Assembly (NCBI RefSeq): GCF_040958095.1
Contig: NC_091217.1
Location: 10,330,880 to 10,394,879, forward strand
DNA: 64,000 bases
Direction: 5' to 3'
DNA from: Procambarus clarkii
Lineage: Eukaryota > Arthropoda > Malacostraca > Decapoda > Cambaridae
In this document: piece after piece, positions 2,456-34,427 of the stretch
How the letters are laid out: the number at the start of each line of letters is the position of its first letter
Numbering within the stretch: the stretch's first letter is position 1
The notes under the pieces: generated by a model
What the model was told of the DNA's origin: nothing
What the model saw: only the letters and a program-made list of their open reading frames with translations
Databases searched by the model: none
Program-made: the position numbers and the translations under genes

Positions 2456-2459
2456 CGTC

Positions 2460-5400
2460 ACAAACATAATAGACCATACTAGTCGTAACATTAACATAAT
2501 AGACCATACTGGTCGTAACATCTATATAATAGACCATACTGGTCGTAACATCTACATAATAGACCATACTGGTCGTAACATCTACATAATAGACCATACT
2601 GGTCGTAACATCAACATAATAGACCATACTGGTCGTAACATCAACATAATAGACCATACTGGTCGTAACATCTACATAGTAGACCATACTGGTCGTAACA
2701 TCAACATAATAGACCATACTGGTCGTAACATCAACATAATAGACCATACTGGTCGTAACATTAACATAATAGACCATACTGGTCGTAACATCAACATAAT
2801 AGACCATACTGGTCGTAACATTAACATAATAGACCATACTGGTCGTAACATCAACATAATAGACCATACTGGTCGTAACATTAACATAATAGACCATACT
2901 GGTCGTAACATCTACATAATAGACCATACTGGTCGTAACATCAACATAATAGACCATACTGGTCGTAACATCAACATAATAGACCATACTGGTCGTAACA
3001 TCTACATAATAGACCATACTGGTCGTAACATCTACATAATAGACCATACTGGTCGTAACATCAACATAATAGACCATACTGGTCGTAACATCTACATAAT
3101 AGACCATACTGGTCGTAACATCTACATAATAGACCATACTGGTCGTAACATCTACATAATAGACCATACTGGTCGTAACATCTACATAATAGACCATACT
3201 GGTCGTAACATCAACATAATAGACCATACTGGTCGTAACATCAACATAATAGACCATACTGGTCGTAACATCTACATAATAGACCATACTGGTCGTAACA
3301 TCTACATAATAGACCATACTGGTCGTAACATCTACATAATAGACCATACTGGTCGTAACATCAACATAATAGACCATACTGGTCGTAACATCTACATAAT
3401 AGACCATACTGGTCGTAACATCAACATAATAGACCATACTGGTCGTAACATCAACATAATAGACCATACTGGTCGTAACATCTACATAATAGACCATACT
3501 GGTCGTAACATCAACATAATAGACCATACTGGTCGTAACATCAACATAATAGACCATACTGGTCGTAACATCAACATAATAGACCATACTGGTCGTAACA
3601 TCAACATAATAGACCATACTGGTCGTAACATCTACATAATAGACCATACTGGTCGTAACATCAACATAATAGACCATACTGGTCGTAACATCAACATAAT
3701 AGACCATACTGGTCGTAACATCAACATAATAGACCATACTGGTCGTAACATCAACATAATAGACCATACTGGTCGTAACATCAACATAATAGACCATACT
3801 GGTCGTAACATCAACATAATAGACCATACTGGTCGTAACATCTACATAATAGACCATACTGGTCGTAACATCAACATAATAGACCATACTGATCATAACA
3901 TTAACATAATAGACCATACTGGTCGTAACATTAACATAATAGACCATACTGGTCGTAACATCTACATAATAGACCATACTGGTCGTAACATCTACATAAT
4001 AGACCATACTGGTCGTAACATTAACATAATAGACCATACTGGTCGTAACATCAACATAATAGACCATACTGGTCGTAACATTAACATAATAGACCATACT
4101 GGTCGTAACATCTACATAATAGACCATACTGGTCGTAGCATCTACATAATAGACCATACTGGTCGTAACATCAACATAATAGACCATACTGGTTGTAACA
4201 TCTACATAATAGACCATACTGGTCGTAACATTAACATAATAGACCATACTGGTCGTAACATTAACATAATAGACCATACTGGTCGTAACATTAACATAAT
4301 AGACCATACTGGTCGTAACATTAACATAATAGACCATACTGGTCGTAACATTAACATAATAGACCATACTGGTCGTAACATCTACATAATAGACCATACT
4401 GGTCGTAACATCTACATAATAGACCATACTGGTCGTAACATCTACAAAATAGACCATACTGGTCGTAACATTAACATAATAGACCATACTGGTCGTAACA
4501 TCAACATAATAGACCATACTGGTCGTAACATCAACATAATAGACCATACTGGTCGTAACATTAACATAATAGACCATACTGGTCGTAACATTAACATAAT
4601 AGACCATACTGGTCGTAACATTAACATAATAGACCATACTGGTCGTAACATTAACATAATAGACCATACTGGTCGTAACATCTACATAATAGACCATACT
4701 GGTCGTAACATCTACATAATAGACCATACTGGTCGTAACATCTACATATTAGACCATACTGGTCGTAACATTAACATAATAGACCATACTGGTCGTAACA
4801 TCTACATAATAGACCATACTGGTCGTAACATCTACATAATAGACCATACTGGTCGTAACATCTACATAATAAACCATACTGGTCGTAACATCAACATAAT
4901 AGACCATACTGGTTGTAACATCTACATAATAGACCATACTGGTCGTAACATTAACATAATAGACCATACTGGTCGTAACATTAACATAATAGACCATACT
5001 GGTCGTAACATTAACATAATAGACCATACTGGTCGTAACATTAACATAATAGACCATACTGGTCGTAACATCTACATAATAGACCATACTGGTCGTAACA
5101 TCTACATAATAGACCATACTGGTCGTAACATTAACATAATAGACCATACTGGTCGTAACATCAACATAATAGACCATACTGGTCGTAACATTAACATAAT
5201 AGACCATACTGGTCGTAACATTAACATAATAGACCATACTGGTCGTAACATTAACATAATAGACCATACTGGTCGTAACATTAACATAATAGACCATACT
5301 GGTCGTAACATTAACATAATAGACCATACTGGTCGTAACATCTACATAATAGACCATACTGGTCGTAACATCTACATAATAGACCATACTGGTCGTAACA

Positions 5401-6429
5401 TCTACATAATAGACCATACTGGTCGTAACATCAACATAATAGACCATACTGGTCGTAACATCTACATAATAGACCATACTGGTCGTAACATCTACATAAT
5501 AGACCATACTGGTCGTAACATCAACATAATAGACCATACTGGTCGTAACATCTACATAATAGACCATACTGGTCGTAACATCTGCATAATAGACCATACT
5601 GGTCGTAACATCTATATAATAGACCATACTGGTCGTAACATTAACATAATAGACCATACTGGTCGTAACATCAACATAATAGACCATACTGGTCGTAACA
5701 TTAACATAATAGACCATACTGGTCGTAACATTAACATAATAGACCATACTGGTCGTAACATTAACATAATAGACCATACTGGTCGTAACATTAACATAAT
5801 AGACCATACTGGTCGTAACATCAACATAATAGACCATACTGGTCGTAACATCAACATAATAGACCATACTGGTCGTAACATCTACATAATAGACCATACT
5901 GGTCGTAACATCAACATAATAGACCATACTGGTCGTAACATCAACATAATAGACCATACTGGTCGTAACATCTACATAATAGACCATACTGGTCGTAACA
6001 TCAACATAATAGACCATACTGGTCGTAACATCAACATAATAGACCATACTGGTCGTAACATCTACATAATAGACCATACTGGTCGTAACATCAACATAAT
6101 AGACCATACTGGTCGTAACATCAACATAATAGACCATACTGGTCGTAACATTATCATAATAGACCATACTGGTCGTAACATTAACATAATAGATCATACT
6201 GGTCGTAACATCTACATAATAGACCATACTGGTCGTAACATTAACATAATAGACCATACTGGTCGTAACATCAACATAATAGACCATACTGGTCGTAACA
6301 TTAACATAATAGACCATACTGGTCGTAACATTAACATAATAGACCATACTGGTCGTAACATCTACATAATAGACCATACTGGTCGTAACATCTACATAAT
6401 AGACCATACTGGTCGTAACATTAACATAA
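2460..6429. repeat. 30-bp minisatellite, left block (about 132 copies)
   Basis: Head-to-tail copies of a 30-bp unit, ACATAATAGACCATACTGG followed by TCGTAACATCT, with very little divergence. Nearly all variation lies in two bases of one triplet, giving three common unit types (tcaacat, ttaacat, tctacat). Rare variants include ggttgt at 4195 and 4915, tagcat at 4140, tctacaaaat at 4441 and tctacatatt at 4741. Thirty is a multiple of three and the unit lacks stops in several frames, so long open frames exist on both strands; these are by-products and not genes. The block ends where LINE copy A begins. Confidence 0.97.
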
Positions 6430-6502
6430 GAACATAAGAACATAACATAAGAACAAAGGCAACTGCAGAAGGCCTATTGGCCCATACGAGGCAGCTCCTA
6501 TT

Positions 6503-9439
6503 CTATAACCACCCAATCCCACTCATATACTTGTCCAACCCGTGCTTGAAACAATCGAGGGACCCCACCTCCACAATGTTACGCGGCAATTGGTTCCACA
6601 AATCAACAACCCTGTTACTGAACCAGTATTTACCCAAGTCTTTCCTAAATCTAAACTTATCCAATTTATACCCATTGTTTCGTGTTCTGTCCTGTGTTGA
6701 TACTTTTAATACCCTATTAATATCCCCCCGGTTATGTCCATTCATCCACTTGTAAACCTCTATCATGTCACCCCTAACTCTTCGCCTTTCCAGTGAATGC
6801 AACTTAAGCTTTGTTAATCTTTCTTCATATGAAAGATTTCTAATTTGGGGAATTAACTTAGTCATCCTACGCTGGACACGTTCAAGTGAATTTATATCCA
6901 TTCTATAATATGGCGACCAAAACTGAACTGCATAATCTAAATGGGGCCTAACTAGAGCAAGATATAGCTTGAGAACCACACCAGGTGTCTTGTTACTAAC
7001 GCTGCGATTAATAAATCCAAGTGTCCGATTTGCCTTATTACGAACATTTATGCATTGATCCTTTTGTTTTAAATTCTTACTAATCATAACTCCCAGATCC
7101 CTTTCGCAATCCGACTTCGCAATCACAACACCATCTAGCTCGTATCTTGTAACTCTATCATCATTACCTAACCTCAGAACTTTACATTTATCAGCATTAA
7201 ACTGCATCTGCCAATCCTTTGACCATTTCAAAACCCTATCTAGATCAACTTGAAGTGATAGTGAGTCCTCCTCCGAATTAATTTCCCTACCGATTTTCGT
7301 ATCATCGGCAAATTTGCAAATGTTGCTACTCAAACCTGAATCTAAATCATTTATATATATTATAAACAACAGAGGTCCCAGGACAGAGCCTTGAGGCACT
7401 CCACTTACAACATTTTCCCACTCTGACTTGATTCCATTTATACTAACTCTCTGTTTCCTTTGGTATAGCCATGCCCTAATCCAGCTTAATATAGCACCCC
7501 CAATACCATGAGACTCTATTTTTTTAATCAGTCTTTCATGTGGCACTGTATCAAAAGCTTTGCTAAAGTCAAGGTATACAACATCGCAATCCTTACCACT
7601 ATCAACTGCCTCAACAATGCTAGAATAAAAAGATAACAAATTTGTTAAACATGAACGGCCATTTATAAAACCATGTTGCGACTCAATTATTAATTTATGT
7701 TTTTCAAGATGAAGACGAATTTTATTTGCTATTATAGATTCGAGCAACTTTCCCACAATGGACGTTAGGCTAATTGGTCGATAGTTAGACGCAAGTGATC
7801 TATCTCCTTTCTTAAAAACTGGTATCACATTAGCAACTTTCCAAAACTCTGGCACTCTGCCTGACTCTATTGATTTATTAAATATGGTTGACAGTGGGTC
7901 ACAAAGCTCCTCTTTGCATTCTTTAAGCACCCTAGCAAACACTTCATCCGGCCCTGGGGATTTGTTTGGTTTGAGTTTTACTATTTGTTTAAGAACATCC
8001 TCCCTGGTAACTGCTAAACTCGTCAACCTGTCCTCGTCCCCACCCACATAGACTTGTTCGGCTGAAGGCATATTGTTAAGTTCCTCTTTAGTAAATACAG
8101 ATACAAAATATTTATTAAAAATACTACTCATCTCTTCATCACTATCTGTTATTTGACCTGTCTCAGTTTTTAATGGACCTATCCTTTCCCTAGTCTTAGT
8201 ACGATATAACTGAAAAAACCCTTTAGGATTTGTCTTTGCTTGCCCTGCTATGCGAACTTCATAGTTTCTTTTTGCTTTCCTTATCTCTTTTTTAACATTT
8301 CTAACCAGTTGTACGAATTCCTGTTCTAAAGTGACCTCCCCATTTTTAATCCTTTTGTACCAAGCTCTCTTTTTACCTATAAGGTTCTTCAAATTCTTTG
8401 TTATCCACTTTGGGTCATTAGTATTCGATCTATTCAATTTGTATGGTATACTACGTTCCTGTGCTTTGTTTAGAATATTCTTAAATAAGTTATATATTGA
8501 ATCCACATCGAAATCCCCATTTAAGTCACCTATCGCTGGGTACATGTCTCGCTCCAAGACCGGCCCACACCCCATACCCAAGACTTTCCAATCAATTTGA
8601 CCCAAAAAATTTCTTAGGCTATTAAAATCAGCTTTTCGAAAATCTGGCACTTTAACAGAATTTTCTCCTACTGGTCTATTCCATTCTATGCTAAATCTGA
8701 TTTCTTTGTGATCACTGCTCCCTAGCTCACTCCCTATTTCGATGTCATTAATTTGCGTTTCCCTGTTAGTTAACACTAAATCTAAAATATTATTTTCCCG
8801 TGTTGGTTCCTTAATGTGTTGCGTAAGAAAGCAATCGTCAATTAATTCTAGAAAATCTTCTGCTTCCCTATTCCCTGTTTTGTTCAACCAGTTTATTCCG
8901 CTAAAATTAAAGTCACCCATGACATAAATACTGTTAGATCTAGATGCTCTAGATATTTCATCCCATAGATGCTTTGCTTCCATTCTGTCTAAATTTGGTG
9001 GCCTATATATTACTCCTATTATAATATTATTAGCTTTTTCGTTTAATTCAATCCAAATAGTTTCTGTGTGTGGCTCTGTTTTGATTCCCTCTTTGAGACT
9101 ACATTTCAAATTGTCCCTAACATATATGGCTACTCCACCTCCTCGTCTAATATATCTATCTGTGTGAAATAGTTTAAATCCATATATTTGATATTCAGCT
9201 AATAGTTCTCTATTTTCTACATTCATCCACGTTTCGGTAAGTGCAATAATATCTATTTTTTCTGTGCAGACAAGAGCATTTAATTCGTTAATTTTATTTC
9301 TTAGACTTCTACTGTTAGTGTAATATACCCTAAGTGAATTGTTATTTTGCGGACCTTCTCTTTCCCTGATCGTTTTGCCAATTCCTTTCTCCCACAAACA
9401 CATACTTTTATTACCTCCTTCCTCCAAATCAATTCCCAT
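6503..9439 (-). CDS. LINE ORF2: endonuclease-reverse transcriptase, copy A, intact
   Basis: 978 codons from the ATG at 9439; a longer version would need a TTG start at 9472. Residues about 35-250 are an APE-type endonuclease with YTNSRSL, LTETW (catalytic Glu 69), IYRPPN, VMGDFN (175-178) and SSDH (242-244). Residues about 485-760 are the reverse transcriptase: KPNKSPGPDE, NYRPISL (552-558), LDFSKAFD (623-630), [13 protein letters not shown] (from 680) and FADD (710-713). The C-terminus has the basic RVQRRMTKLI and LSYEERL motifs of this clade. The enzyme would nick target DNA and copy the element RNA in place. No stop or frameshift is present. It differs from copies B and C at four readable positions: Ser191Arg, Gly286Val, Asn300Tyr and Tyr339Asn. 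All catalytic motifs are kept. Confidence 0.92.
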   Translation of the reverse strand: MGIDLEEGGNKSMCLWEKGIGKTIREREGPQNNNSLRVYYTNSRSLRNKINELNALVCTEKIDIIALTETWMNVENRELLAEYQIYGFKLFHTDRYIRRGGGVAIYVRDNLKCSLKEGIKTEPHTETIWIELNEKANNIIIGVIYRPPNLDRMEAKHLWDEISRASRSNSIYVMGDFNFSGINWLNKTGNREAEDFLELIDDCFLTQHIKEPTRENNILDLVLTNRETQINDIEIGSELGSSDHKEIRFSIEWNRPVGENSVKVPDFRKADFNSLRNFLGQIDWKVLGMGCGPVLERDMYPAIGDLNGDFDVDSIYNLFKNILNKAQERSIPYKLNRSNTNDPKWITKNLKNLIGKKRAWYKRIKNGEVTLEQEFVQLVRNVKKEIRKAKRNYEVRIAGQAKTNPKGFFQLYRTKTRERIGPLKTETGQITDSDEEMSSIFNKYFVSVFTKEELNNMPSAEQVYVGGDEDRLTSLAVTREDVLKQIVKLKPNKSPGPDEVFARVLKECKEELCDPLSTIFNKSIESGRVPEFWKVANVIPVFKKGDRSLASNYRPISLTSIVGKLLESIIANKIRLHLEKHKLIIESQHGFINGRSCLTNLLSFYSSIVEAVDSGKDCDVVYLDFSKAFDTVPHERLIKKIESHGIGGAILSWIRAWLYQRKQRVSINGIKSEWENVVSGVPQGSVLGPLLFIIYINDLDSGLSSNICKFADDTKIGREINSEEDSLSLQVDLDRVLKWSKDWQMQFNADKCKVLRLGNDDRVTRYELDGVVIAKSDCERDLGVMISKNLKQKDQCINVRNKANRTLGFINRSVSNKTPGVVLKLYLALVRPHLDYAVQFWSPYYRMDINSLERVQRRMTKLIPQIRNLSYEERLTKLKLHSLERRRVRGDMIEVYKWMNGHNRGDINRVLKVSTQDRTRNNGYKLDKFRFRKDLGKYWFSNRVVDLWNQLPRNIVEVGSLDCFKHGLDKYMSGIGWL

Positions 9440-9450
9440 ACCTCTATCTA

Positions 9451-10247
9451 CTAACAGTTTAAACCCAAACAAACACCTCTAACCACTTCTTCTAACGAGT
9501 TCGCAACAGCAACAACCCCAGCTCTCGATAGATGCACCCCATCACGAGCATACAGTTCATTTCTTCCATAGAAGTGTTCCCAGTTGTCTATGAAAGATAT
9601 TGCATTTGATTTGCAATATCTTTCCAGCCGGCAATTGACACCAAGTGCCCTCGATATCCATTCATTTCCCACTCCCTTTCTTGGAAGAATGCCACATATG
9701 ATCGGGATTCCTCCCTTGCTCCTAACTAACTCTATGGCTGTTTTATACCTCTGAATCAGTTCCTCACTCCTAACTCGACCAACATCATTTCCTCCCACGC
9801 TAATGCAAATAATGGGATTGTTCCCATTACCAGCCATAATATCATTCATATTGTTTATAATATCACCAATGCCAGCTCCGGGATAGCAAACCCTTAACCT
9901 GTTCCCCCTATCTCTAGCACAAAACGTTCTATCCAAATACCTTATCTGGGAATCTCCCACAACTAATGTTTGCTTAGGTACTTCCTTTACTTTCTGAGGG
10001 GCCTGCGCTTCCTTTCTCTTCGTTGCTTTCCCTTTTGCGCGATCCACAGTCTCTCCACAGCACTCGTCCTCCAAAACGTCAAATGAATTAGAAGTTGCTA
10101 TGGCGTTTGAAGGCGGCTTTATCAAAGTCTTCTTAAGGCCCCTGTCTTTCACAACTCTCCAAGACGAGGTCCCTTTACTGCTGGTCTCCTCCTTCGTTAC
10201 TTCTCGTTGTTCTTTCAGCAGACGCACCTCCTCCCGCAGAAAGTCCA
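9451..10247 (-). pseudogene. LINE ORF1 with SGNH esterase domain, copy A, N-terminus missing
   Basis: The 3' 797 bp of ORF1, starting near residue 20 of the full protein. The SGNH/GDSL hydrolase motifs are intact: VVGDSQIRYLD (nucleophile Ser), PGAG, SVGGNDVGR and DGVHLSRAG (Asp/His). CR1-like LINEs are known to carry such an esterase in ORF1; its role in transposition is not settled. The reading frame has no stop and continues upstream into the minisatellite up to 13227, giving an artificial open frame of more than 1,200 codons. The start codon was lost by 5' truncation, so expression is doubtful. Confidence 0.85.
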
Positions 10248-13246
10248 AATAGACCATACTGGTCGTAACATCAACATAATAGACCATACTGGTCGTAACA
10301 TTAACATAATAGACCATACTGGTCGTAACATCTACATAATAGACCATACTGGTCGTAACATCTACATAATAGACCATACTGGTCGTAACATCTACATAAT
10401 AGACCATACTGGTCGTAACATCTACATAATAGACCATACTGGTCGTAACATCAACATAATAGACCATACTGGTCGTAACATCAACATAATAGACCATACT
10501 GGTCGTAACATTAACATAATAGACCATACTGGTCGTAACATTAACATAATAGACCATACTGGTCGTAACATTAACATAATAGACCATACTGGTCGTAACA
10601 TTAACATAATAGACCATACTGGTCGTAACATCTACATAATAGACCATACTGGTCGTAACATCTACATAATAGACCATACTGGTCGTAACATCTACATAAT
10701 AGACCATACTGGTCGTAACATGAACATAATAGACCATACTGGTCGTAACATCAACATAATAGACCATACTGGTCGTAACATTAACATAATAGACCATACT
10801 GGTCGTAACATTAACATAATAGACCATACTGGTCGTAACATTAACATAATAGACCATACTGGTCGTAACATTAACATAATAGACCATACTGGTCGTAACA
10901 TCTACATAATAGACCATACTGGTCGTAACATCTACATAATAGACCATACTGGTCGTAACATCTACATAATAGACCATACTGGTCGTAACATTAACATAAT
11001 AGACCATACTGGTCGTAACATTAACATAATAGACCATACTGGTCGTAACATTAACATAATAGACCATACTGGTCGTAACATCTACATAATAGACCATACT
11101 GGTCGTAACATCTACATAATAGACCATACTGGTCGTAACATCTACATAATAGACCATACTGGTCGTAACATCAACATAATAGACCATACTGGTCGTAACA
11201 TCTACATAATAGACCATACTGGTCGTAACATTAACATAATAGACCATACTGGTCGTAACATTAACATAATAGACCATACTGGTCGTAACATTAACATAAT
11301 AGACCATACTGGTCGTAACATTAACATAATAGACCATACTGGTCGTAACATCTACATAATAGACCATACTGGTCGTAACATCTACATAATAGACCATACT
11401 GGTCGTAACATCTACATAATAGACCATACTGGTCGTAACATTAACATAATAGACCATACTGGTCGTAACATCAACATAATAGACCATACTGGTCGTAACA
11501 TCAACATAATAGACCATACTGGTCGTAACATTAACATAATAGACCATACTGGTCGTAACATTAACATAATAGACCATACTGGTCGTAACATTAACATAAT
11601 AGACCATACTGGTCGTAACATCTACATAATAGACCATACTGGTCGTAACATCTACATAATAGACCATACTGGTCGTAACATCTACATAATAGACCATACT
11701 GGTCGTAACATTAACATAATAGACCATACTGGTCGTAACATTAACATAATAGACCATACTGGTCGTAACATTAACATAATAGACCATACTGGTCGTAACA
11801 TCTACATAATAGACCATACTGGTCGTAACATCTACATAATAGACCATACTGGTCGTAACATCTACATAATAGACCATACTGGTCGTAACATCAACATAAT
11901 AGACCATACTGGTCGTAACATCTACATAATAGACCATACTGGTCGTAACATTAACATAATAGACCATACTGGTCGTAACATTAACATAATAGACCATACT
12001 GGTCGTAACATTAACATAATAGACCATACTGGTCGTAACATCTACATAATAGACCATACTGGTCGTAACATCTACATAATAGACCATACTGGTCGTAACA
12101 TCTACATAATAGACCATACTGGTCGTAACATCTACATAATAGACCATACTGGTCGTAACATTAACATAATAGACCATACTGGTCGTAACATCAACATAAT
12201 AGACCATACTGGTCGTAACATCAACATAATAGACCATACTGGTCGTAACATTAACATAATAGACCATACTGGTCGTAACATTAACATAATAGACCATACT
12301 GGTCGTAACATTAACATAATAGACCATACTGGTCGTAACATCTACATAATAGACCATACTGGTCGTAACATCTACATAATAGACCATACTGGTCGTAACA
12401 TCTACATAATAGACCATACTGGTCGTAACATCAACATAATAGACCATACTGGTCGTAACATCTACATAATAGACCATACTGGTCGTAACATCTACATAAT
12501 AGACCATACTGGTCGTAACATCTACATAATAGACCATACTGGTCGTAACATCTACATAATAGACCATACTGGTCGTAACATCTATATAATAGACCATACT
12601 GGTCGTAACATTAATATAATAGACCATACTGGTCGTAACATCAACATAATAGACCATACTGGTCGTAACATTAACATAATAGACCATACTGGTCGTAACA
12701 TTAACATAATAGACCATACTGGTCGTAACATTAACATAATAGACCATACTGGTCGTAACATTAACATAATAGACCATACTGGTCGTATCATTAACATAAT
12801 AGACCATACTGGTCGTAACATCTACATAATAGACCATACTGGTCGTAACATCTACATAATAGACCATACTGGTCGTAACATCTACATAATAGACCATACT
12901 GGTCGTAACATCAACATAATAGACCATACTGGTCGTAACATCTACATAATAGACCATACTGGTCGTAACATCTACATAATAGACCATACTGGTCGTAACA
13001 TCTACATAATAGACCATACTGGTCGTAACATCTACATAATAGACCATACTGGTCGTAACATCTATATAATAGACCATACTGGTCGTAACATTAACATAAT
13101 AGACCATACTGGTCGTAACATCAACATAATAGACCATACTGGTCGTAACATTAACATAATAGACCATACTGGTCGTAACATTAACATAATAGACCATACT
13201 GGTCGTAACATTAACATAATAGACCATACTGGTCGTAACATTAACA
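10248..13246. repeat. 30-bp minisatellite, right block (about 100 copies)
   Basis: The same 30-bp unit and the same three unit types as the left block. The order of unit types repeats with a 720-bp period (compare 10921 with 11641, and 11401 with 12121) and, near the right end, a 480-bp period (12361 with 12841). Both 480-bp blocks carry a tctatat variant (12591 and 13071). Left and right blocks were presumably one array of about 7 kb before copy A inserted. Confidence 0.97.
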
Positions 13247-13290
13247 GAATTTGTAGGTTGTTTGTGGCCTATGTTCTTCTATTCCACATT

Positions 13291-13452
13291 CCATAACATG
13301 GCCATACATAACATGGCCATACATAACATGGCCATACATAACATGGCCATACATAACATGGCCATACATAACATGGCCATACATAACATGGCCATACATA
13401 ACATGGCCATACGTAACATGGCCATACATAACATGGCCATACATAACATGGC
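13291..13452. repeat. 15-bp tandem repeat, about 11 copies
   Basis: Unit CATAACATGGCCATA, nearly perfect, with a single variant (acgtaac at 13411). It starts about 45 bp after the 30-bp array but is unrelated in sequence. The short open frames through it are a consequence of the 15-bp unit. Confidence 0.95.

Positions 13453-21020: not shown

Positions 21021-21892
<872 letters not shown>

Positions 21893-21944
<52 letters not shown>
21893..21944. repeat. (TA)n microsatellite
   Basis: About 25 TA units leading into the perfect palindrome. Confidence 0.93.
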
Positions 21945-21948
<4 letters not shown>

Positions 21949-22059
21949 AAATATGACCGAAAAAGTAAGATTAATAATTCTAACACGAATTTTCTCAATC
22001 TTTCGTACATTTCTTTTCACTGTTAGAGGTAAATCAAAAATCAATTCTCCAAAATTCAT
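21943..22059 (-). pseudogene. Mirrored Penelope-like N-terminal fragment, left arm
   Basis: The same 39 residues as the frame starting at 22224, encoded on the minus strand by the left palindrome arm and running out into (TA)n. It lacks the LQERLLPKYTN continuation because the palindrome ends before it. Confidence 0.4.
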
Positions 22060-22069
22060 TTTTATTTCT

Positions 22070-22122
22070 AGTCTGACGCGACACGAGCGCGTTTCGTAAA
22101 ACTTATTACATTTTCAAAGACT
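22070..22122 (-). ncRNA. Hammerhead-like motif, left arm
   Basis: Exact mirror of the motif at 22161-22213, so the same considerations apply. Confidence 0.35.
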
Positions 22123-22160
22123 TTAGTTCACAAATACACAACTGTGTATTTGTGAACTAA

Positions 22161-22213
22161 AGTCTTTGAAAATGTAATAAGTTTTACGAAACGCGCTCGT
22201 GTCGCGTCAGACT
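22161..22213 (+). ncRNA. Hammerhead-ribozyme-like motif, right arm, degenerate core
   Basis: Stem I can form between AGTCT (22161-22165) and AGACT (22209-22213). The second conserved box CGAAAC is at 22187-22192. Stem III can form between CGCG (22192-22195) and CGCG (22203-22206) with a 7-base loop, followed by GTC at 22206-22208, the usual cleavage triplet, directly before stem I. The first conserved box is TTGAAAA (22166-22172) in place of CTGANGA, so two key bases are off and self-cleavage is doubtful. Penelope-like elements are known to carry hammerheads upstream of their ORF; here the ATG follows at 22224. Confidence 0.4.
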
Positions 22214-22223
22214 AGAAATAAAA

Positions 22224-22374
22224 ATGAATTTTGGAGAATTGATTTTTGATTTACCTCTAACAGTGAAAAGAAATGTACGAAAGATTGAGAAAATTCGTGT
22301 TAGAATTATTAATCTTACTTTTTCGGTCATATTTAATAATATATGTCTACAGGAAAGACTGCTACCAAAATATA

Positions 22375-22377
<3 letters not shown>
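22224..22377 (+). pseudogene. N-terminal fragment of a Penelope-like retroelement protein
   Basis: An ATG-initiated frame of about 50 codons (MNFGELIFDLPL, then RKIEKIRVRIINLTF and LQERLLPKYTN) that runs into (TA)n. The pattern of an Arg/Lys-rich helix followed by a leucine and LLPKYT recalls the N-terminus of Penelope-like proteins as I remember them. Reverse transcriptase and GIY-YIG domains are absent. The first 39 residues recur in the mirrored frame on the other strand. Confidence 0.4.

Positions 22378-22470
<93 letters not shown>
22378..22470. repeat. (TA)n microsatellite
   Basis: About 46 TA units that interrupt the Penelope-like frame. From 22475 to 22788 I see no feature. Confidence 0.95.
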
Positions 22471-25886: not shown

Positions 25887-26477
25887 CGCGCAAAAGGGAA
25901 AGCAACGAAGAGAAAGGAAGCGCAGGCCCCTCAGAAAGTAAAGGAAGTACCTAAGCAAACATTAGTTGTGGGAGATTCCCAGATAAGGTATTTGGATAGA
26001 ACGTTTTGTGCTAGAGATAGGGGGAACAGGTTAAGGGTTTGCTATCCCGGAGCTGGCATTGGTGATATTATAAACAACATGAATGATATTATGGCTGGTA
26101 ATGGGAACAATCCCATTATTTGCATTAGCGTGGGAGGAAATGATGTTGGTCGAGTCAGGAGTGAGGAACTGATTCAGAGGTATAAAACAGCCATAGAGTT
26201 AGTTAGGAGCAAGGGAGGAATCCCGATCATATGTGGCATTCTTCCAAGAAAGGGAGTGGGAAATGAATGGATATCGAGGGCACTTGGTGTCAATTGCCGG
26301 CTGGAAAGATATTGCAAATCAAATGCAATATCTTTCATAGACAACTGGGAACACTTCTATGGAAGAAATGAAATGTATGCTCGTGATGGGGTGCATCTAT
26401 CGAGAGCTGGGGTTGTTGCTGTTGCGAACTCGCTAGAAGAAGTGGTTAGAGGTGTTTGTTTGGGTTTAAACTGTTAG
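25887..26477 (+). pseudogene. LINE ORF1 esterase, copy B, N-terminus missing
   Basis: 197 codons from RAKGKATKRKEAQ to the TAG at 26475. All SGNH motifs are present (GDSQIRYLD, PGAG, GGNDVGR, DGVHLS). It corresponds to about residues 88-283 of the copy C protein. The N-terminal coiled coil is lost by 5' truncation, so there is no native start. Confidence 0.88.
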
Positions 26478-26488
26478 TAGATAGAGGT

Positions 26489-27790
26489 ATGGGAATTGAT
26501 TTGGAGGAAGGAGGTAATAAAAGTATGTGTTTGTGGGAGAAAGGAATTGGCAAAACGATCAGGGAAAGAGAAGGTCCGCAAAATAACAATTCACTTAGGG
26601 TATATTACACTAACAGTAGAAGTCTAAGAAATAAAATTAACGAATTAAATGCTCTTGTCTGCACAGAAAAAATAGATATTATTGCACTTACCGAAACGTG
26701 GATGAATGTAGAAAATAGAGAACTATTAGCTGAATATCAAATATATGGATTTAAACTATTTCACACAGATAGATATATTAGACGAGGAGGTGGAGTAGCC
26801 ATATATGTTAGGGACAATTTGAAATGTAGTCTCAAAGAGGGAATCAAAACAGAGCCACACACAGAAACTATTTGGATTGAATTAAACGAAAAAGCTAATA
26901 ATATTATAATAGGAGTAATATATAGGCCACCAAATTTAGACAGAATGGAAGCAAAGCATCTATGGGATGAAATATCTAGAGCATCTAGATCTAACAGTAT
27001 TTATGTCATGGGTGACTTTAATTTTAGCGGAATAAACTGGTTGAACAAAACAGGGAATAGTGAAGCAGAAGATTTTCTAGAATTAATTGACGATTGCTTT
27101 CTTACGCAACACATTAAGGAACCAACACGGGAAAATAATATTTTAGATTTAGTGTTAACTAACAGGGAAACGCAAATTAATGACATCGAAATAGGGAGTG
27201 AGCTAGGGAGCAGTGATCACAAAGAAATCAGATTTAGCATAGAATGGAATAGACCAGTAGGAGAAAATTCTGTTAAAGTGCCAGATTTTCGAAAAGCTGA
27301 TTTTAATAGCCTAAGAAATTTTTTGGGTCAAATTGATTGGAAAGGCTTGGGTATGGGGTGTGGGCCGGTCTTGGAGCGAGACATGAACCCAGCGATAGGT
27401 GACTTAAATGGGGATTTCGATGTGGATTCAATATATAACTTATTTAAGAATATTCTAAACAAAGCACAGGAACGTAGTATACCATACAAATTGAATAGAT
27501 CGTATACTAATGACCCAAAGTGGATAACAAAGAATTTGAAGAACCTTATAGGTAAAAAGAGAGCTTGGTACAAAAGGATTAAAAATGGGGAGGTCACTTT
27601 AGAACAGGAATTCGTACAACTGGTTAGAAATGTTAAAAAAGAGATAAGGAAAGCAAAAAGAAACTATGAAGTTCGCATAGCAGGGCAAGCAAAGACAAAT
27701 CCTAAAGGGTTTTTTCAGTTATATCGTACTAAGACTAGGGAAAGGATAGGTCCATTAAAAACTGAGACAGGTCAAATAACAGATAGTGAT
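26489..27790 (+). pseudogene. LINE ORF2 copy B, N-terminal endonuclease half, broken by insertion
   Basis: 434 codons from ATG 26489, holding the whole endonuclease domain (TETW, GDFN, SSDH) and ending GQITDSD. The frame then runs 12 codons into the inserted sequence and stops at 27826. Its RT half lies at 31727-33361. The two halves cannot make one protein at this locus. Confidence 0.9.
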
Positions 27791-27819
27791 AATATCACTG
27801 ATAGTGATATTATCACTAT
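27783..27819. repeat. Perfect hairpin at the 5' junction of LINE C
   Basis: ATAGTGATAATATCACT (27783-27799) and AGTGATATTATCACTAT (27803-27819) are exact complements with a 3-base loop. The left arm straddles the last bases of copy B, and the right arm lies in the start of copy C. Confidence 0.9.
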
Positions 27820-27851
27820 TATATAACAGATTGTTATATTATCATAGCAAT

Positions 27852-28703
27852 ATGGAAGTTGTAGTGAAGGACCTGGTGACTCTAGTGGGAGCCCTGAGGA
27901 CAGAGTTGGACTCTCTGCGGGAGGAGGTGCGTCAGCTTAAAAAACAACGAGAAGTAACGAAGGAGGAGACCAGCAGTAAAGGGACCTCGTCTTGGAGAGT
28001 TGCGAAAGACAGGGGCCTTAAGAAGACTTTGATAAAGCCGCCTTCAAACGTCATAGCAACTTCAAATTCATTTGACGTTTTGGAGGACGAGTGCTGTGGA
28101 GAGACTGTGGATCGCGCAAAAGGGAAAGCAACGAAGAGAAAGGAAGCGCAGGCCCCTCAGAAAGTAAAGGAAGTACCTAAGCAAACATTAGTTGTGGGAG
28201 ATTCCCAGATAAGGTATTTGGATAGAACGTTTTGTGCTAGAGATAGGGGGAACAGGTTAAGGGTTTGCTATCCCGGAGCTGGCATTGGTGATATTATAAA
28301 CAACATGAATGATATTATGGCTGGTAATGGGAACAATCCCATTATTTGCATTAGCGTGGGAGGAAATGATGTTGGTCGAGTCAGGAGTGAGGAACTGATT
28401 CAGAGGTATAAAACAGCCATAGAGTTAGTTAGGAGCAAGGGAGGAATCCCGATCATATGTGGCATTCTTCCAAGAAAGGGAGTGGGAAATGAATGGATAT
28501 CGAGGGCACTTGGTGTCAATTGCCGGCTGGAAAGATATTGCAAATCAAATGCAATATCTTTCATAGACAACTGGGAACACTTCTATGGAAGAAATGAAAT
28601 GTATGGTCGTGATGGGGTGCATCTATCGAGAGCTGGGGTTGTTGCTGTTGCGAACTCGCTAGAAGAAGTGGTTAGAGGTGTTTGTTTGGGTTTAAACTGT
28701 TAG
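27852..28703 (+). CDS. LINE ORF1: coiled coil plus SGNH esterase, copy C, complete
   Basis: 283 codons from the ATG at 27852; an earlier in-frame ATG at 27786 lies in the insertion junction and is unlikely to be used. Residues 1-36 have hydrophobic heptads (VVVKDLVTLVGALRTELD), a probable oligomerising coiled coil. A basic linker (KGKATKRKE) follows. Residues 112-270 are an SGNH/GDSL hydrolase: GDS (116-118), PGAG (141-144), GGND (170-173) and DGVHLS (254-259). Esterase-type ORF1 proteins are known in CR1-like LINEs and probably act with the element RNA at membranes or in assembly, but this is unresolved. The stop overlaps the region just before ORF2 (11 bp gap to its ATG), suggesting coupled translation. 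Confidence 0.9.
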   Translation: MEVVVKDLVTLVGALRTELDSLREEVRQLKKQREVTKEETSSKGTSSWRVAKDRGLKKTLIKPPSNVIATSNSFDVLEDECCGETVDRAKGKATKRKEAQAPQKVKEVPKQTLVVGDSQIRYLDRTFCARDRGNRLRVCYPGAGIGDIINNMNDIMAGNGNNPIICISVGGNDVGRVRSEELIQRYKTAIELVRSKGGIPIICGILPRKGVGNEWISRALGVNCRLERYCKSNAISFIDNWEHFYGRNEMYGRDGVHLSRAGVVAVANSLEEVVRGVCLGLNC

Positions 28704-28714
28704 TAGATAGAGGT

Positions 28715-31651
28715 ATGGGAATTGATTTGGAGGAAGGAGGTAATAAAAGTATGTGTTTGTGGGAGAAAGGAATTGGCAAAACGATCAGGGAAAGAGAAGG
28801 TCCGCAAAATAACAATTCACTTAGGGTATATTACACTAACAGTAGAAGTCTAAGAAATAAAATTAACGAATTAAATGCTCTTGTCTGCACAGAAAAAATA
28901 GATATTATTGCACTTACCGAAACGTGGATGAATGTAGAAAATAGAGAACTATTAGCTGAATATCAAATATATGGATTTAAACTATTTCACACAGATAGAT
29001 ATATTAGACGAGGAGGTGGAGTAGCCATATATGTTAGGGATAATTTGAAATGTAGTCTCAAAGAAGGAATCAAAACAGAGCCACACACAGAAACTATTTG
29101 GATTGAATTAAACGAAAAAGCTAATAATATTATAATAGGAGTAATATATAGGCCACCAAATTTAGACAGAATGGAAGCAAAGCATCTATGGGATGAAATA
29201 TCTAGAGCATCTAGATCTAACAGTATTTATGTCATGGGTGACTTTAATTTTAGCGGAATAAACTGGTTGAACAAAACAGGGAATAGTGAAGCAGAAGATT
29301 TTCTAGAATTAATTGACGATTGCTTTCTTACGCAACACATTAAGGAACCAACACGGGAAAATAATATTTTAGATTTAGTGTTAACTAACAGGGAAACGCA
29401 AATTAATGACATCGAAATAGGGAGTGAGCTAGGGAGCAGTGATCACAAAGAAATCAGATTTAGCATAGAATGGAATAGACCAGTAGGAGAAAATTCTGTT
29501 AAAGTGCCAGATTTTCGAAAAGCTGATTTTAATAGCCTAAGAAATTTTTTGGGTCAAATTGATTGGAAAGGCTTGGGTATGGGGTGTGGGCCGGTCTTGG
29601 AGCGAGACATGAACCCAGCGATAGGTGACTTAAATGGGGATTTCGATGTGGATTCAATATATAACTTATTTAAGAATATTCTAAACAAAGCACAGGAACG
29701 TAGTATACCATACAAATTGAATAGATCGTATACTAATGACCCAAAGTGGATAACAAAGAATTTGAAGAACCTTATAGGTAAAAAGAGAGCTTGGTACAAA
29801 AGGATTAAAAATGGGGAGGTCACTTTAGAACAGGAATTCGTACAACTGGTTAGAAATGTTAAAAAAGAGATAAGGAAAGCAAAAAGAAACTATGAAGTTC
29901 GCATAGCAGGGCAAGCAAAGACAAATCCTAAAGGGTTTTTTCAGTTATATCGTACTAAGACTAGGGAAAGGATAGGTCCATTAAAAACTGAGACAGGTCA
30001 AATAACAGATAGTGATGAAGAGATGAGTAGTATTTTTAATAAATATTTTGTATCTGTATTTACTAAAGAGGAACTTAACAATATGCCTTCAGCCGAACAA
30101 GTCTATGTGGGTGGGGACGAGGACAGGTTGACGAGTTTAGCAGTTACCAGGGAGGATGTTCTTAAACAAATAGTAAAACTCAAACCAAACAAATCCCCAG
30201 GGCCGGATGAAGTGTTTGCTAGGGTGCTTAAAGAATGCAAAGAGGAGCTTTGTGACCCACTGTCAACCATATTTAATAAATCAATAGAGTCAGGCAGAGT
30301 GCCAGAGTTTTGGAAAGTTGCTAATGTGATACCAGTTTTTAAGAAAGGAGATAGATCACTTGCGTCTAACTATCGACCAATTAGCCTAACGTCTATTGTG
30401 GGAAAGTTACTCGAATCTATAATAGCAAATAAAATTCGTCTTCATCTTGAAAAACATAAATTAATAATTGAGTCGCAACATGGTTTTATAAATGGCCGTT
30501 CATGTTTAACAAATTTGTTATCTTTTTATTCTAGCATTGTTGAGGCAGTTGATAGTGGTAAGGATTGCGATGTTGTATACCTTGACTTTAGCAAAGCTTT
30601 TGATACAGTGCCACATGAAAGACTGATTAAAAAAATAGAGTCTCATGGTATTGGGGGTGCTATATTAAGCTGGATTAGGGCATGGCTATACCAAAGGAAA
30701 CAGAGAGTTAGTATAAATGGAATCAAGTCAGAGTGGGAAAATGTTGTAAGTGGAGTGCCTCAAGGCTCTGTCCTGGGACCTCTGTTGTTTATAATATATA
30801 TAAATGATTTAGATTCAGGTTTGAGTAGCAACATTTGCAAATTTGCCGATGATACGAAAATCGGTAGGGAAATTAATTCGGAGGAGGACTCACTATCACT
30901 TCAAGTTGATCTAGATAGGGTTTTGAAATGGTCAAAGGATTGGCAGATGCAGTTTAATGCTGATAAATGTAAAGTTCTGAGGTTAGGTAATGATGATAGA
31001 GTTACAAGATACGAGCTAGATGGTGTTGTGATTGCGAAGTCGGATTGCGAAAGGGATCTGGGAGTTATGATTAGTAAGAATTTAAAACAAAAGGATCAAT
31101 GCATAAATGTTCGTAATAAGGCAAATCGGACACTTGGATTTATTAATCGCAGCGTTAGTAACAAGACACCTGGTGTGGTTCTCAAGCTATATCTTGCTCT
31201 AGTTAGGCCCCATTTAGATTATGCAGTTCAGTTTTGGTCGCCATATTATAGAATGGATATAAATTCACTTGAACGTGTCCAGCGTAGGATGACTAAGTTA
31301 ATTCCCCAAATTAGAAATCTTTCATATGAAGAAAGATTAACAAAGCTTAAGTTGCATTCACTGGAAAGGCGAAGAGTTAGGGGTGACATGATAGAGGTTT
31401 ACAAGTGGATGAATGGACATAACCGGGGGGATATTAATAGGGTATTAAAAGTATCAACACAGGACAGAACACGAAACAATGGATATAAATTGGATAAGTT
31501 TAGATTTAGGAAAGACTTGGGTAAATACTGGTTCAGTAACAGGGTTGTTGATTTGTGGAACCAATTGCCGCGTAACATTGTGGAGGTGGGGTCCCTCGAT
31601 TGTTTCAAGCACGGGTTGGACAAGTATATGAGTGGGATTGGGTGGTTATAG
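28715..31651 (+). CDS. LINE ORF2: endonuclease-reverse transcriptase, copy C, complete
   Basis: 978 codons, no stop or frameshift. The endonuclease (residues about 35-250) has YTNSRSL, TETW, IYRPPN, GDFN and SSDH. The RT (about 485-760) has [28 protein letters not shown] and FADD. The C-terminal region carries RVQRRMTKLI and LSYEERLTKLKLH. I chose the ATG at 28715, 11 bp after the ORF1 stop; the frame is open further upstream but without an ATG. Domain order and length fit the CR1/L2 group. No RNase H domain is present, as usual for that group. Confidence 0.93.
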   Translation: MGIDLEEGGNKSMCLWEKGIGKTIREREGPQNNNSLRVYYTNSRSLRNKINELNALVCTEKIDIIALTETWMNVENRELLAEYQIYGFKLFHTDRYIRRGGGVAIYVRDNLKCSLKEGIKTEPHTETIWIELNEKANNIIIGVIYRPPNLDRMEAKHLWDEISRASRSNSIYVMGDFNFSGINWLNKTGNSEAEDFLELIDDCFLTQHIKEPTRENNILDLVLTNRETQINDIEIGSELGSSDHKEIRFSIEWNRPVGENSVKVPDFRKADFNSLRNFLGQIDWKGLGMGCGPVLERDMNPAIGDLNGDFDVDSIYNLFKNILNKAQERSIPYKLNRSYTNDPKWITKNLKNLIGKKRAWYKRIKNGEVTLEQEFVQLVRNVKKEIRKAKRNYEVRIAGQAKTNPKGFFQLYRTKTRERIGPLKTETGQITDSDEEMSSIFNKYFVSVFTKEELNNMPSAEQVYVGGDEDRLTSLAVTREDVLKQIVKLKPNKSPGPDEVFARVLKECKEELCDPLSTIFNKSIESGRVPEFWKVANVIPVFKKGDRSLASNYRPISLTSIVGKLLESIIANKIRLHLEKHKLIIESQHGFINGRSCLTNLLSFYSSIVEAVDSGKDCDVVYLDFSKAFDTVPHERLIKKIESHGIGGAILSWIRAWLYQRKQRVSINGIKSEWENVVSGVPQGSVLGPLLFIIYINDLDSGLSSNICKFADDTKIGREINSEEDSLSLQVDLDRVLKWSKDWQMQFNADKCKVLRLGNDDRVTRYELDGVVIAKSDCERDLGVMISKNLKQKDQCINVRNKANRTLGFINRSVSNKTPGVVLKLYLALVRPHLDYAVQFWSPYYRMDINSLERVQRRMTKLIPQIRNLSYEERLTKLKLHSLERRRVRGDMIEVYKWMNGHNRGDINRVLKVSTQDRTRNNGYKLDKFRFRKDLGKYWFSNRVVDLWNQLPRNIVEVGSLDCFKHGLDKYMSGIGWL

Positions 31652-31722
31652 AATAGGAGCTGCCTCGTATGGGCCAATAGGCCTTCTGCAGTTACCTTTG
31701 TTCTTATGTTCTTATGTTCTTA

Positions 31723-33426
31723 TGATGAAGAGATGAGTAGTATTTTTAATAAATATTTTGTATCTGTATTTACTAAAGAAGAACTTAACAATATGCCTTC
31801 AGCCGAACAAGTCTATGTGGGTGGGGACGAGGACAGGTTGACGAGTTTAGCAGTTACCAGGGAGGATGTTCTTAAACAAATAGTAAAACTCAAACCAAAC
31901 AAATCCCCAGGGCCGGATGAAGTGTTTGCTAGGGTGCTTAAAGAATGCAAAGAGGAGCTTTGTGACCCACTGTCAACCATATTTAATAAATCAATAGAGT
32001 CAGGCAGAGTGCCAGAGTTTTGGAAAGTTGCTAATGTGATACCAGTTTTTAAGAAAGGAGATAGATCACTTGCGTCTAACTATCGACCAATTAGCCTAAC
32101 GTCTATTGTGGGAAAGTTACTCGAATCTATAATAGCAAATAAAATTCGTCTTCATCTTGAAAAACATAAATTAATAATTGAGTCGCAACATGGTTTTATA
32201 AATGGCCGTTCATGTTTAACAAATTTGTTATCTTTTTATTCTAGCATTGTTGAGGCAGTTGATAGTGGTAAGGATTGCGATGTTGTATACCTTGACTTTA
32301 GCAAAGCTTTTGATACAGTGCCACATGAAAGACTGATTAAAAAAATAGAGTCTCATGGTATTGGGGGTGCTATATTAAGCTGGATTAGGGCATGGCTATA
32401 CCAAAGGAAACAGAGAGTTAGTATAAATGGAATCAAGTCAGAGTGGGAAAATGTTGTAAGTGGAGTGCCTCAAGGCTCTGTCCTGGGACCTCTGTTGTTT
32501 ATAATATATATAAATGATTTAGATTCAGGTTTGAGTAGCAACATTTGCAAATTTGCCGATGATACGAAAATCGGTAGGGAAATTAATTCGGAGGAGGACT
32601 CACTATCACTTCAAGTTGATCTAGATAGGGTTTTGAAATGGTCAAAGGATTGGCAGATGCAGTTTAATGCTGATAAATGTAAAGTTCTGAGGTTAGGTAA
32701 TGATGATAGAGTTACAAGATACGAGCTAGATGGTGTTGTGATTGCGAAGTCGGATTGCGAAAGGGATCTGGGAGTTATGATTAGTAAGAATTTAAAACAA
32801 AAGGATCAATGCATAAATGTTCGTAATAAGGCAAATCGGACACTTGGATTTATTAATCGCAGCGTTAGTAACAAGACACCTGGTGTGGTTCTCAAGCTAT
32901 ATCTTGCTCTAGTTAGGCCCCATTTAGATTATGCAGTTCAGTTTTGGTCGCCATATTATAGAATGGATATAAATTCACTTGAACGTGTCCAGCGTAGGAT
33001 GACTAAGTTAATTCCCCAAATTAGAAATCTTTCATATGAAGAAAGATTAACAAAGCTTAAGTTGCATTCACTGGAAAGGCGAAGAGTTAGGGGTGACATG
33101 ATAGAGGTTTACAAGTGGATGAATGGACATAACCGGGGGGATATTAATAGGGTATTAAAAGTATCAACACAGGACAGAACACGAAACAATGGATATAAAT
33201 TGGATAAGTTTAGATTTAGGAAAGACTTGGGTAAATACTGGTTCAGTAACAGGGTTGTTGATTTGTGGAACCAATTGCCGCGTAACATTGTGGAGGTGGG
33301 GTCCCTCGATTGTTTCAAGCACGGGTTGGACAAGTATATGAGTGGGATTGGGTGGTTATAGAATAGGAGCTGCCTCGTATGGGCCAATAGGCCTTCTGCA
33401 GTTACCTTTGTTCTTATGTTCTTATG
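31723..33426 (+). mobile_element. LINE copy D: 3' half of the interrupted element B/D
   Basis: Starts at the codon that follows the break in copy B and runs to a normal 3' end with a short GTTCTTAT tail at about 33410-33426. The junction with copy E follows immediately. Confidence 0.9.
31727..33361 (+). pseudogene. LINE ORF2 copy D, RT half
   Basis: 544 codons from EEMSSIFNKYF to the TAA at 33359, holding the complete RT domain including FADD. It lacks the endonuclease half (at 26489-27790) and a native start; a fortuitous upstream ATG in the tail repeat of copy C (31706) is in frame. Confidence 0.9.
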
Positions 33427-34427
33427 TAAGTCAGAGTGGGAAAATGTTGTAAGTGGAGTGCCTCAAGGCTCTGTCCTGGGACCTCTGTTGTTTATAATAT
33501 ATATAAATGATTTAGATTCAGGTTTGAGTAGCAACATTTGCAAATTTGCCGATGATACGAAAATCGGTAGGGAAATTAATTCGGAGGAGGACTCACTATC
33601 ACTTCAATTTGATCTAGATAGGGTTTTGAAATGGTCAAAGGATTGGCAGATGCAGTTTAATGCTGATAAATGTAAAGTTCTGAGGTTAGGTAATGATGAT
33701 AGAGTTACAAGATACGAGCTAGATGGTGTTGTGATTGCGAAGTCGGATTGCGAAAGGGATCTGGGAGTTATGATTAGTAAGAATTTAAAACAAAAGGATC
33801 AATGCATAAATGTTCGTAATAAGGCAAATCGGACACTTGGATTTATTAATCGCAGCGTTAGTAACAAGACACCTGGTGTGGTTCTCAAGCTATATCTTGC
33901 TCTAGTTAGGCCCCATTTAGATTATGCAGTTCAGTTTTGGTCGCCATATTATAGAATGGATATAAATTCACTTGAACGTGTCCAGCGTAGGATGACTAAG
34001 TTAATTCCCCAAATTAGAAATCTTTCATATGAAGAAAGATTAACAAAGCTTAAGTTGCATTCACTGGAAAGGCGAAGAGTTAGGGGTGACATGATAGAGG
34101 TTTACAAGTGGATGAATGGACATAACCGGGGGGATATTAATAGGGTATTAAAAGTATCAACACAGGACAGAACACGAAACAATGGGTATAAATTGGATAA
34201 GTTTAGATTTAGGAAAGACTTGGGTAAATACTGGTTCAGTAACAGGGTTGTTGATTTGTGGAACCAATTGCCGCGTAACATTGTGGAGGTGGGGTCCCTC
34301 GATTGTTTCAAGCACGGGTTGGACAAGTATATGAGTGGGATTGGGTGGTTATAGAATAGGAGCTGCCTCGTATGGGCCAATAGGCCTTCTGCAGTTACCT
34401 TTGTTCTTATGTTCTTATGTTCTTATG
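33427..34427 (+). mobile_element. LINE copy E: strongly 5'-truncated family-alpha LINE joined to the tail of D
   Basis: Begins at ORF2 codon 671 directly after the tail repeat of copy D and ends in its own three-unit GTTCTTAT tail, followed by LINE F sequence. This gives two family members head-to-tail without any host DNA between them. Confidence 0.9.
33428..34354 (+). pseudogene. LINE ORF2 copy E, C-terminal 308 residues
   Basis: Open from [19 protein letters not shown] to TAG at 34352. It contains GVPQGS and FADD but lacks the first RT motifs and the endonuclease, so it is inactive. One readable difference from C and D is LQFDLDR in place of LQVDLDR. Confidence 0.9.

Follow-up and report, generated by a model that had tools for sequence, protein, structure and literature searches.

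What gives rise to a perfect palindrome made of two copies of the start of one transposable element? The window (the whole stretch analysed here, 64,000 nt of Procambarus clarkii, NC_091217.1:10,330,880-10,394,879, forward strand, assembly GCF_040958095.1) contains an exact inverted repeat with arms at 21939-22140 and 22143-22344 (406 bp overall, with 202 nt per arm and no mismatches), separated by a 2-nt centre, AC. A sequence-only reading of the window had described the palindrome as exact, which it is, but had placed it at 21941-22342, 2 bp too short on each side. We asked what the arms are, where they begin and end, and which process could have set them head to head within (TA)n.

The window palindrome

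Judged by its sequence, each arm represents the beginning of a Penelope-like element (PLE). An ATG lies about 80 nt from the centre in each arm, with the frame pointing outward (22224 on the forward strand; the mirror position, 22059 on the reverse strand, was computed by hand). The repeat search and the open frames agree with the sequence-only reading that the arms are head-to-head PLE 5' ends with outward ORF starts and (TA)n on both sides. Counted outward from the centre, the arms first differ at offset 204, the point at which the left arm gives way to (TA)n (the element reads TTTAATAAT up to this junction and ATAT follows). The right arm carries about 37 nt more of the element beyond this offset and then enters (TA)n (the element reads ACTAAT, then ATAT). 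The features are as follows.

21893-21938, no strand: left-flank (TA)n tract.
21939-22140, reverse strand: left arm, PLE leader and ORF start, ending at the no-tail (N) reverse transcription (RT) start site (inverted repeat and alignment).
21939-22059, reverse strand: the same ORF start in the left arm, interrupted by (TA)n after about 120 nt (mirror coordinate by hand).
22070-22122, reverse strand: hammerhead-like element of the left arm, predicted cleavage 22075/22074 (mirror by hand).
22141-22142, no strand: centre, the putative joint of two cDNA ends, a few nt from the A of TCAGT (predicted start) in copies with upstream sequence.
22143-22344, forward strand: right arm, PLE sense strand, exact complement of the left arm (inverted repeat).
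22161-22213, forward strand: hammerhead-like three-way junction of the right arm with a degenerate core, predicted cleavage 22208/22209 (fold; no Rfam hammerhead match).
22224-22381, forward strand: ORF start MNFGELIFDLPLTVKRNVRK...LLPKYTNI, interrupted by (TA)n (open frame).
22345-22381, forward strand: tail, about 37 nt of extra PLE ORF in the right arm only (T site), its edge uncertain by a few nt because the last bases are common with (TA)n.
22382-22470, no strand: right-flank (TA)n tract.

When up to 3 mismatches were allowed, a 35-mer taken from the arm was found in the two arms and nowhere else in the window (maximum count of 0 in 100 shuffles), and a perfect palindrome with arms of 202 nt is far above chance expectation. 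The locus encodes about 40 and about 52 codons before (TA)n is reached. Thus, it lacks RT and endonuclease coding and is not a complete PLE.

Other repeats were identified in the window. Two copies of a foldback element of about 390 bp (21021-21410 and 21504-21893) are mutually inverted, and each lies between (TA)n tracts. The element has TTAGG-like repeats in its middle and ends GTCGTACCTA...CAGCCTA, and such ends also border the (TA)n of PLE copies L009, L011, L033, L037 and L041. A LINE-like unit of 3.8 kb forms an inverted pair (6433-10248 and 27906-31724, 99.3% identity) beside a 30-bp minisatellite, and encodes a 991-aa frame that looks endonuclease- and RT-like by eye. The minisatellite is found on both sides of this unit (2406-6437 and 10111-13296), with more than 1000 codons open on the forward strand and long frames on the reverse strand. 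Truncated LINE-like frames also follow one another head to tail over 26450-34354 (26450-27826, 28676-31651, 31652-33361 and 33362-34354), the last two copies starting deeper inside the ORF.

The element family and its longer copies

The genome searched comprises 4,027,284,227 bases in 2308 contigs (4.03 Gb). The 202-bp arm gave 363 candidates, 40 of which were scored, with 41 matches listed. Among the matches listed, copies at 100% identity and full score occupy at least 6 places including the window, which fits the recent origin that the sequence-only reading had considered.

The longer copies support the expectation that they encode a PLE-type RT and not an unrelated protein. An 868-aa frame at L026:5214-7817 (reverse strand) begins as the arms do and matches RVT_1 (E 1.1e-7, 32.2 bits against a Pfam cut-off of 29.6); the L028 frame scores 24.9 bits, under the same cut-off. 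The sequence-only reading had suggested looking for full copies with RT and GIY-YIG domains after the ATG. Both are seen downstream of the same ATG, but the match to GIY-YIG (PF01541) is weak and below the cut-off of 22.6 bits (E 0.0034 and 18.1 bits in L026, E 0.013 and 16.3 bits in L028), with the motif visible by eye. A PDB search with the L026 frame gave 4 matches, the best being a group II intron RT (E 0.00011). The L025 locus has two leader copies (start regions) that enclose an ORF unit and lie 2742 bp apart, a tandem, pseudo-LTR arrangement. Its two pieces, each scanned separately, gave no RVT_1 match, and a PDB search with one of the pieces gave no match. An exact 24-mer of the palindrome has no match in viral contigs, and blastn of the right arm against phages and plasmids gave none.

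PLEs have a tail of 30-40 bp, and in this family about 37 nt separate the N and T ends. Exact 29-mers running into TA number 16,293 for N ends and 19,303 for T ends genome-wide, counts that reflect number and not AT preference, because the patterns demanded TA. Uncut copies carry GATATAAAATCGGAGATGCGTAAGTTCTATTCAGT or close variants upstream of the centre, a TATA box with its T 30 bases before the A of TCAGT, an arthropod initiator. We define this A as +1, so that the window joint is at +1/+4.

Locus L010 contains an open frame of 841 aa (L010:7183-9705; RVT_1 34.5 bits) that adjoins a PLE copy. The family unit does not match this frame; thus, it is probably a different RT element, and it is not counted as a member of the PLE family.

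Outer ends of the palindromes

Most outer ends align at one of two sites and are nearly always followed by (TA)n. We classed them as N at about +205 (accepted range 198-212) or T, with tail, at about +242 (accepted range 233-246). In the window they lie 117-121 nt (N) and 156-160 nt (T) after the ATG, allowing for TA ambiguity.

We examined 67 places with window-type or hammerhead-site palindromes (including the window, and including L030, L031, L034 and L067, none of which has two long arms), and 49 were classifiable at both ends. N/T was found in 47 of these, NN in 2 and TT in none; the other 18 places comprise 8 T/other, 6 N/other and 4 other/other. Without four likely duplicates (L043, L083, L089 and L091), the N/T fraction is 43/45. 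The first 54 places fetched gave 39 N/T, 1 N/N, 0 T/T, 8 T/other, 4 N/other and 2 other/other (39/40 classifiable; binomial p 7.5e-11 against one half). Twenty of the 54 were fetched after the rule had been noted and provide a fresh test (16 N/T, 2 T/other, 1 N/other and 1 N/N). The 13 extra places, which are 13 of the 50 listed hammerhead-site palindromes, have one common joint and gave 8 N/T, 1 N/N, 2 N/other and 2 other/other. Because the flanks match in few of them (both flanks in L090/L091, one in L088/L089), we consider the 13 to be mostly separate events with a favoured microhomology joint. The NN exceptions are L071 (C31:10129950-10130730) and L085 (C8:9340908-9341608). TAATATAATATAT is found at the end of both arms of L071.

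Neighbouring ends were also paired on C1, using the first 100 listed N and first 100 listed T ends, whose common span (C1:1-25.02 Mb) holds 189 ends. Head-to-head neighbours within 10 kb are mixed in 38 of 44 cases (20 TN, 18 NT), with 4 TT and 2 NN, whereas shuffled labels gave a mean of 22.0 mixed pairs and a maximum of 35 in 20000 (binomial p 5e-7). Three of the mixed pairs, at 24.98 Mb, resemble one tandem duplication. Tail-to-tail neighbours are mixed in 5 of 13. Longer insertions were read from alignment tables at 20 loci. Nine are head-to-head N/T (L009, L014, L015, L016, L017, L018, L023, L024 and L028), and the unequal-arm insertions L015, L016, L017, L023 and L028 are among them; L025 is T/T, L011 is roughly T/T, and both ends are not clear in nine. 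The one-tail, one-no-tail rule thus holds in the copies examined, with exceptions.

Proposed origin

We propose that the palindrome is most likely a stub, formed when PLE RNA was copied twice, from each side of a cut in (TA)n, and we assign this reading a probability of about 0.72. The PLE protein, probably as a dimer, would cut both strands of a (TA)n tract, and each 3' end would prime cDNA synthesis inside the ORF start of PLE RNA. Measured from the ATG, one cDNA would start 117-121 nt downstream, at the no-tail site, and the other 156-160 nt downstream, at the tail site, whose RNA is able to pair with (TA)n. The two would then run to the RNA 5' end, near the transcription start below the TATA box, and joining of the cDNA ends there would leave two head-to-head 5' ends with no gene body. 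In larger insertions, the template may have continued into the upstream unit, or one cDNA may have been longer. In a larger sister class of palindromes, the two cDNAs end on the predicted hammerhead site or slightly before it, suggesting that self-cleaved RNA also serves as template. The anatomy, the pairing of one N with one T end in the copies examined and the recurrent stop points are observed directly; we infer the dimer, the use of one RNA molecule for both arms, the ribozyme cleavage and the end joining.

Palindrome centres as putative RNA 5' ends

If both cDNAs run off the RNA, the centres mark RNA 5' ends. We counted centres as raw matches per motif in zones of about 15 nt with arms of 10-16 bases, so that the following counts are not strictly comparable: 3 at -37 to -23 (reversed control 0), 49 at -11 to +4, the start zone below the TATA box (reversed control 5), 42 at +6 to +21 (reversed control 0; by eye, one repeated 30-mer accounts for 11 of them, and in about 12 one arm extends to the start zone), and 178 around the predicted hammerhead bond, or 127 with a stricter pattern (reversed control 0 in both). 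The patterns are exact and thus miss mutated copies, and the lists include duplicates.

The longer arm of the start-zone matches stops at +1 in 10/49 and at -9 or -10 in 11/49, at least 7 of the 49 looking unrelated to the element on reading. Arm ends range from about -19 to +5 and form two clusters. Placement of the centres exactly at +1 is weakened by the wider pattern, in which the ends spread over the start zone. At the hammerhead site, 42 of the 50 palindromes listed out of 178 have a longer arm that ends precisely on the base following the predicted bond (3 of the others are short by 2 and 5 are past the bond). The 100 arms of these 50 stop at the predicted bond in 59 cases, short of it by 1-6 in 35, and beyond it in 6. 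With the stricter pattern, which allows no short-stopping arm, both arms are within 1 nt of the bond in 41 of the 50 listed out of 127. From these distributions, the start appears broad or subfamily-dependent, and the hammerhead peak is one base wide, which suggests hammerhead-ended RNA as an in vivo template.

The predicted hammerhead

The minimum free energy fold of the leader is a three-way junction with stem I (AGUCU/AGACU), stem II (GUAA/UUAC), GAAA, a GC-rich stem III, and GUC before AGACU. This is the plan of a type I hammerhead. The fold has z = -0.66, with 44/200 shuffles folding at least as well, and an Rfam search returned no hammerhead match. The core is UUGAAAAU rather than CUGANGA in 60/60 motifs (15 variants), taken from loci chosen as good matches or palindromes. 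It carries substitutions at both C3 and G8 and contains one extra U; the two substitutions would allow a U-A pair, which may preserve activity. The L025 unit, searched with a single loose pattern, gave no canonical core. Rfam microRNA matches on the palindrome were set aside, being below gathering scores and of the kind that any long hairpin gives, and covariation was dropped as support, there being by eye too few paired changes in the 15 variants. Given the weak fold z, the degenerate core and the Rfam result, self-cleavage at the predicted bond is inferred from the position of the bond.

The main rival to cleavage, which we consider rather unlikely, is that the RT stalls on intact RNA when it reaches the base of stem III. 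A GC-rich stem immediately upstream of the stop could hold up the enzyme, and the altered core, the Rfam result and the shuffled folds all fit RNA that remains uncut, as does the dispensability of the Anolis ribozyme in vitro (PMC11167929). The stops, however, are one-base exact at the predicted bond in the proportions given above, and copies carrying upstream sequence read through the stem. On balance, the stops suggest cleaved RNA as the template of these palindromes.

Relatedness of the arms and alternative origins

A strict pattern for the window-type centre matches 14 places in the genome, against 0 for a reversed control. Among these (the window and 13 fetched places), 11 are two-armed copies of the element, and the window palindrome is one ordinary member of the larger palindrome set. 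L030 and L034 match the pattern yet are not the element, L031 is without a long left arm, and L039/L040 are one duplicate that matches on both flanks. Joints vary among the 11 two-armed copies, with 4-10 nt between GTGTATT arms, and short filler sequences are found at palindrome joints. At L029, element sequence in the left arm breaks off near +123 and non-TA sequence (CCACTGTTGGAGGTCAACAG) follows, and the right flank matches L039/L040.

Paired arms of one palindrome share subfamily variants (e.g., L032, L036, L037 and L039). The mean arm-arm distance is 0.033 within and 0.062 between palindromes, and 0/10000 partner shuffles were as low as the observed within-pair mean (26 palindromes, from 30 given (10 + 20) minus L044, L051, L055 and L057; L030, L031, L034 and L040 were excluded beforehand). 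The partner is the nearest arm, ties allowed, in 35/52 arms and uniquely nearest in 12. L029, L035 and L053 appear divergent in this comparison because one arm ends early. From the shared variants and the low within-pair distance, both arms probably derive from one source copy, perhaps one RNA.

The closeness of the arms would also be expected if a single target-primed cDNA snapped back, copied itself and joined the far side via TA microhomology. Short joint fillers fit such a hairpin second strand, as do L009 and L024, in each of which the two arms share one internal stop (U2421 and U2031, respectively). This route accounts neither for the use of the other RT start site by the second arm nor for the lack of TT palindromes, and it would not give N/T ends in unequal-arm insertions. 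We judge it improbable. A poorer candidate is an antisense PLE transcript that primes itself, its 3' end folding back and being extended, with insertion of the hairpin product. Such self-priming has already been proposed for head-to-head palindromes in bdelloid Penelope (PMC3846280) and agrees with the variants shared by the arms of one palindrome. As we read it, the proposal predicts equal outer ends, yet 47/49 differ by the tail, and the centres sit where sense-RNA 5' ends are expected (below the TATA box and at the hammerhead site).

Duplication is evident among the palindromes themselves. Likely later duplicates are L039/L040, L042/L043 and L090/L091 (both flanks match) and L088/L089 (one flank); the remaining shared flanks are one-sided and mostly a common neighbouring repeat, and L082/L083 matched ambiguously. 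Seven identical CTATAG-centred PLE palindromes lie within 76 kb (G000:C23:41155993-41231706), and their 30-mer is also present on C25 (once) and C35 (three times), so that this palindrome seems to have spread through duplication. The paired duplicates named first, and the 0 mismatches in 202 bp, could be taken to favour inverted duplication or gene conversion of a single insertion at the DNA level, but the tail is in one arm only and the breakpoints coincide with RT start sites and with RNA 5' ends of two kinds, and we regard this origin as highly improbable. Gene conversion, which the sequence-only reading had offered as a cause of the identity, is not needed, as the arms were probably alike from the outset, copied from a single RNA or from several made at one locus. 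Among known assembly artefacts are perfect palindromes (inverted-duplication chimeras), a cause that we consider very unlikely because such palindromes are found at many loci and differ there in joint and flanks; the outer ends are unequal, and the two flanks of the window palindrome differ. Of the three causes in the sequence-only reading, recency fits, conversion and artefact are disfavoured, and the likely cause, copying of PLE RNA from both sides of a cut, was absent from its list.

Comparison with known systems

The palindromes bear on how PLEs integrate, on why their ends are inverted and may carry a tail, and on the function of their hammerheads. They seem to preserve, in an assembled genome, a record of cDNA starts and RNA 5' ends, so that all three questions can be tested by counting together with a few assays of RNA ends. 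A wider reading, on which we are evenly divided, is that of an asymmetric complex that uses each start site once, one per DNA end, on sense RNA, so that the palindromes would record RNA 5' ends and RNA cut by a variant hammerhead would be a regular in vivo template. If true, PLE ribozymes would gain the in vivo role that they have been missing. Listings from a search of the open literature showed nothing on hammerhead-centred palindromes or on one start per end, and novelty is claimed within that search.

In LINE-1 twin priming, two cDNAs are made off both strands of one target site and an inversion results. The process proposed here is alike in priming two cDNAs from both target strands with an inverted product. 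Twin priming inverts part of one 3'-anchored copy, whereas here both cDNAs would start at dedicated internal sites and run toward the RNA 5' end.

The Penelope elements of the bdelloid Adineta vaga (Pen2a_Av and others) have inverted head-to-head pLTRs, a 31-bp tail that is optional at one of them, a promoter with TATA and an Inr-like sequence in the pLTR, and palindromes at the head-to-head junction (PMC3846280). The crayfish family is alike in all of these, with head-to-head inverted ends, a single optional tail, a TATA box and junction palindromes. The A. vaga palindromes are ascribed to antisense self-priming (PMC3846280); here, by contrast, the N/T rule holds in 47/49 classifiable cases, and the centres fall at the hammerhead site or within the predicted start zone.

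The closest likeness in mechanism is to PAc (Poseidon of Anolis carolinensis), a PLE studied in vitro by Frangieh et al. (PMC11167929). PAc has two adjacent internal RT starts, mainly 111-118 nt into the ORF, and its tail of 30-40 bp is the stretch between them; the crayfish ends are at a matching place. Both DNA strands are cut and extended, at AT-rich targets, and a hammerhead lies near the ORF start; the crayfish family appears to share these features, its hammerhead being a predicted one. Frangieh et al. saw the RT start site alike on both strands, which speaks against the reading proposed here. The use of one start at one insertion end and of the other start at the other end is absent from the main text of PMC11167929. 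The RT start of PAc is not homologous to the cut DNA, whereas both sites here carry TAATAT adjoining (TA)n. Known PLE hammerheads are usually without helix III (PMC6155905), which the predicted hammerhead here has. The PAc cleavage site is 26 nt after the ATG (PMC11167929), and that predicted here is about 15 nt before it. Frangieh et al. found ribozyme mutants to be without effect on insertion in vitro and no reads beginning or ending at the PAc ribozyme site (PMC11167929). In this family, 178 palindromes are centred on the predicted site, and on the evidence of their end points they point the opposite way to the ribozyme results for PAc.
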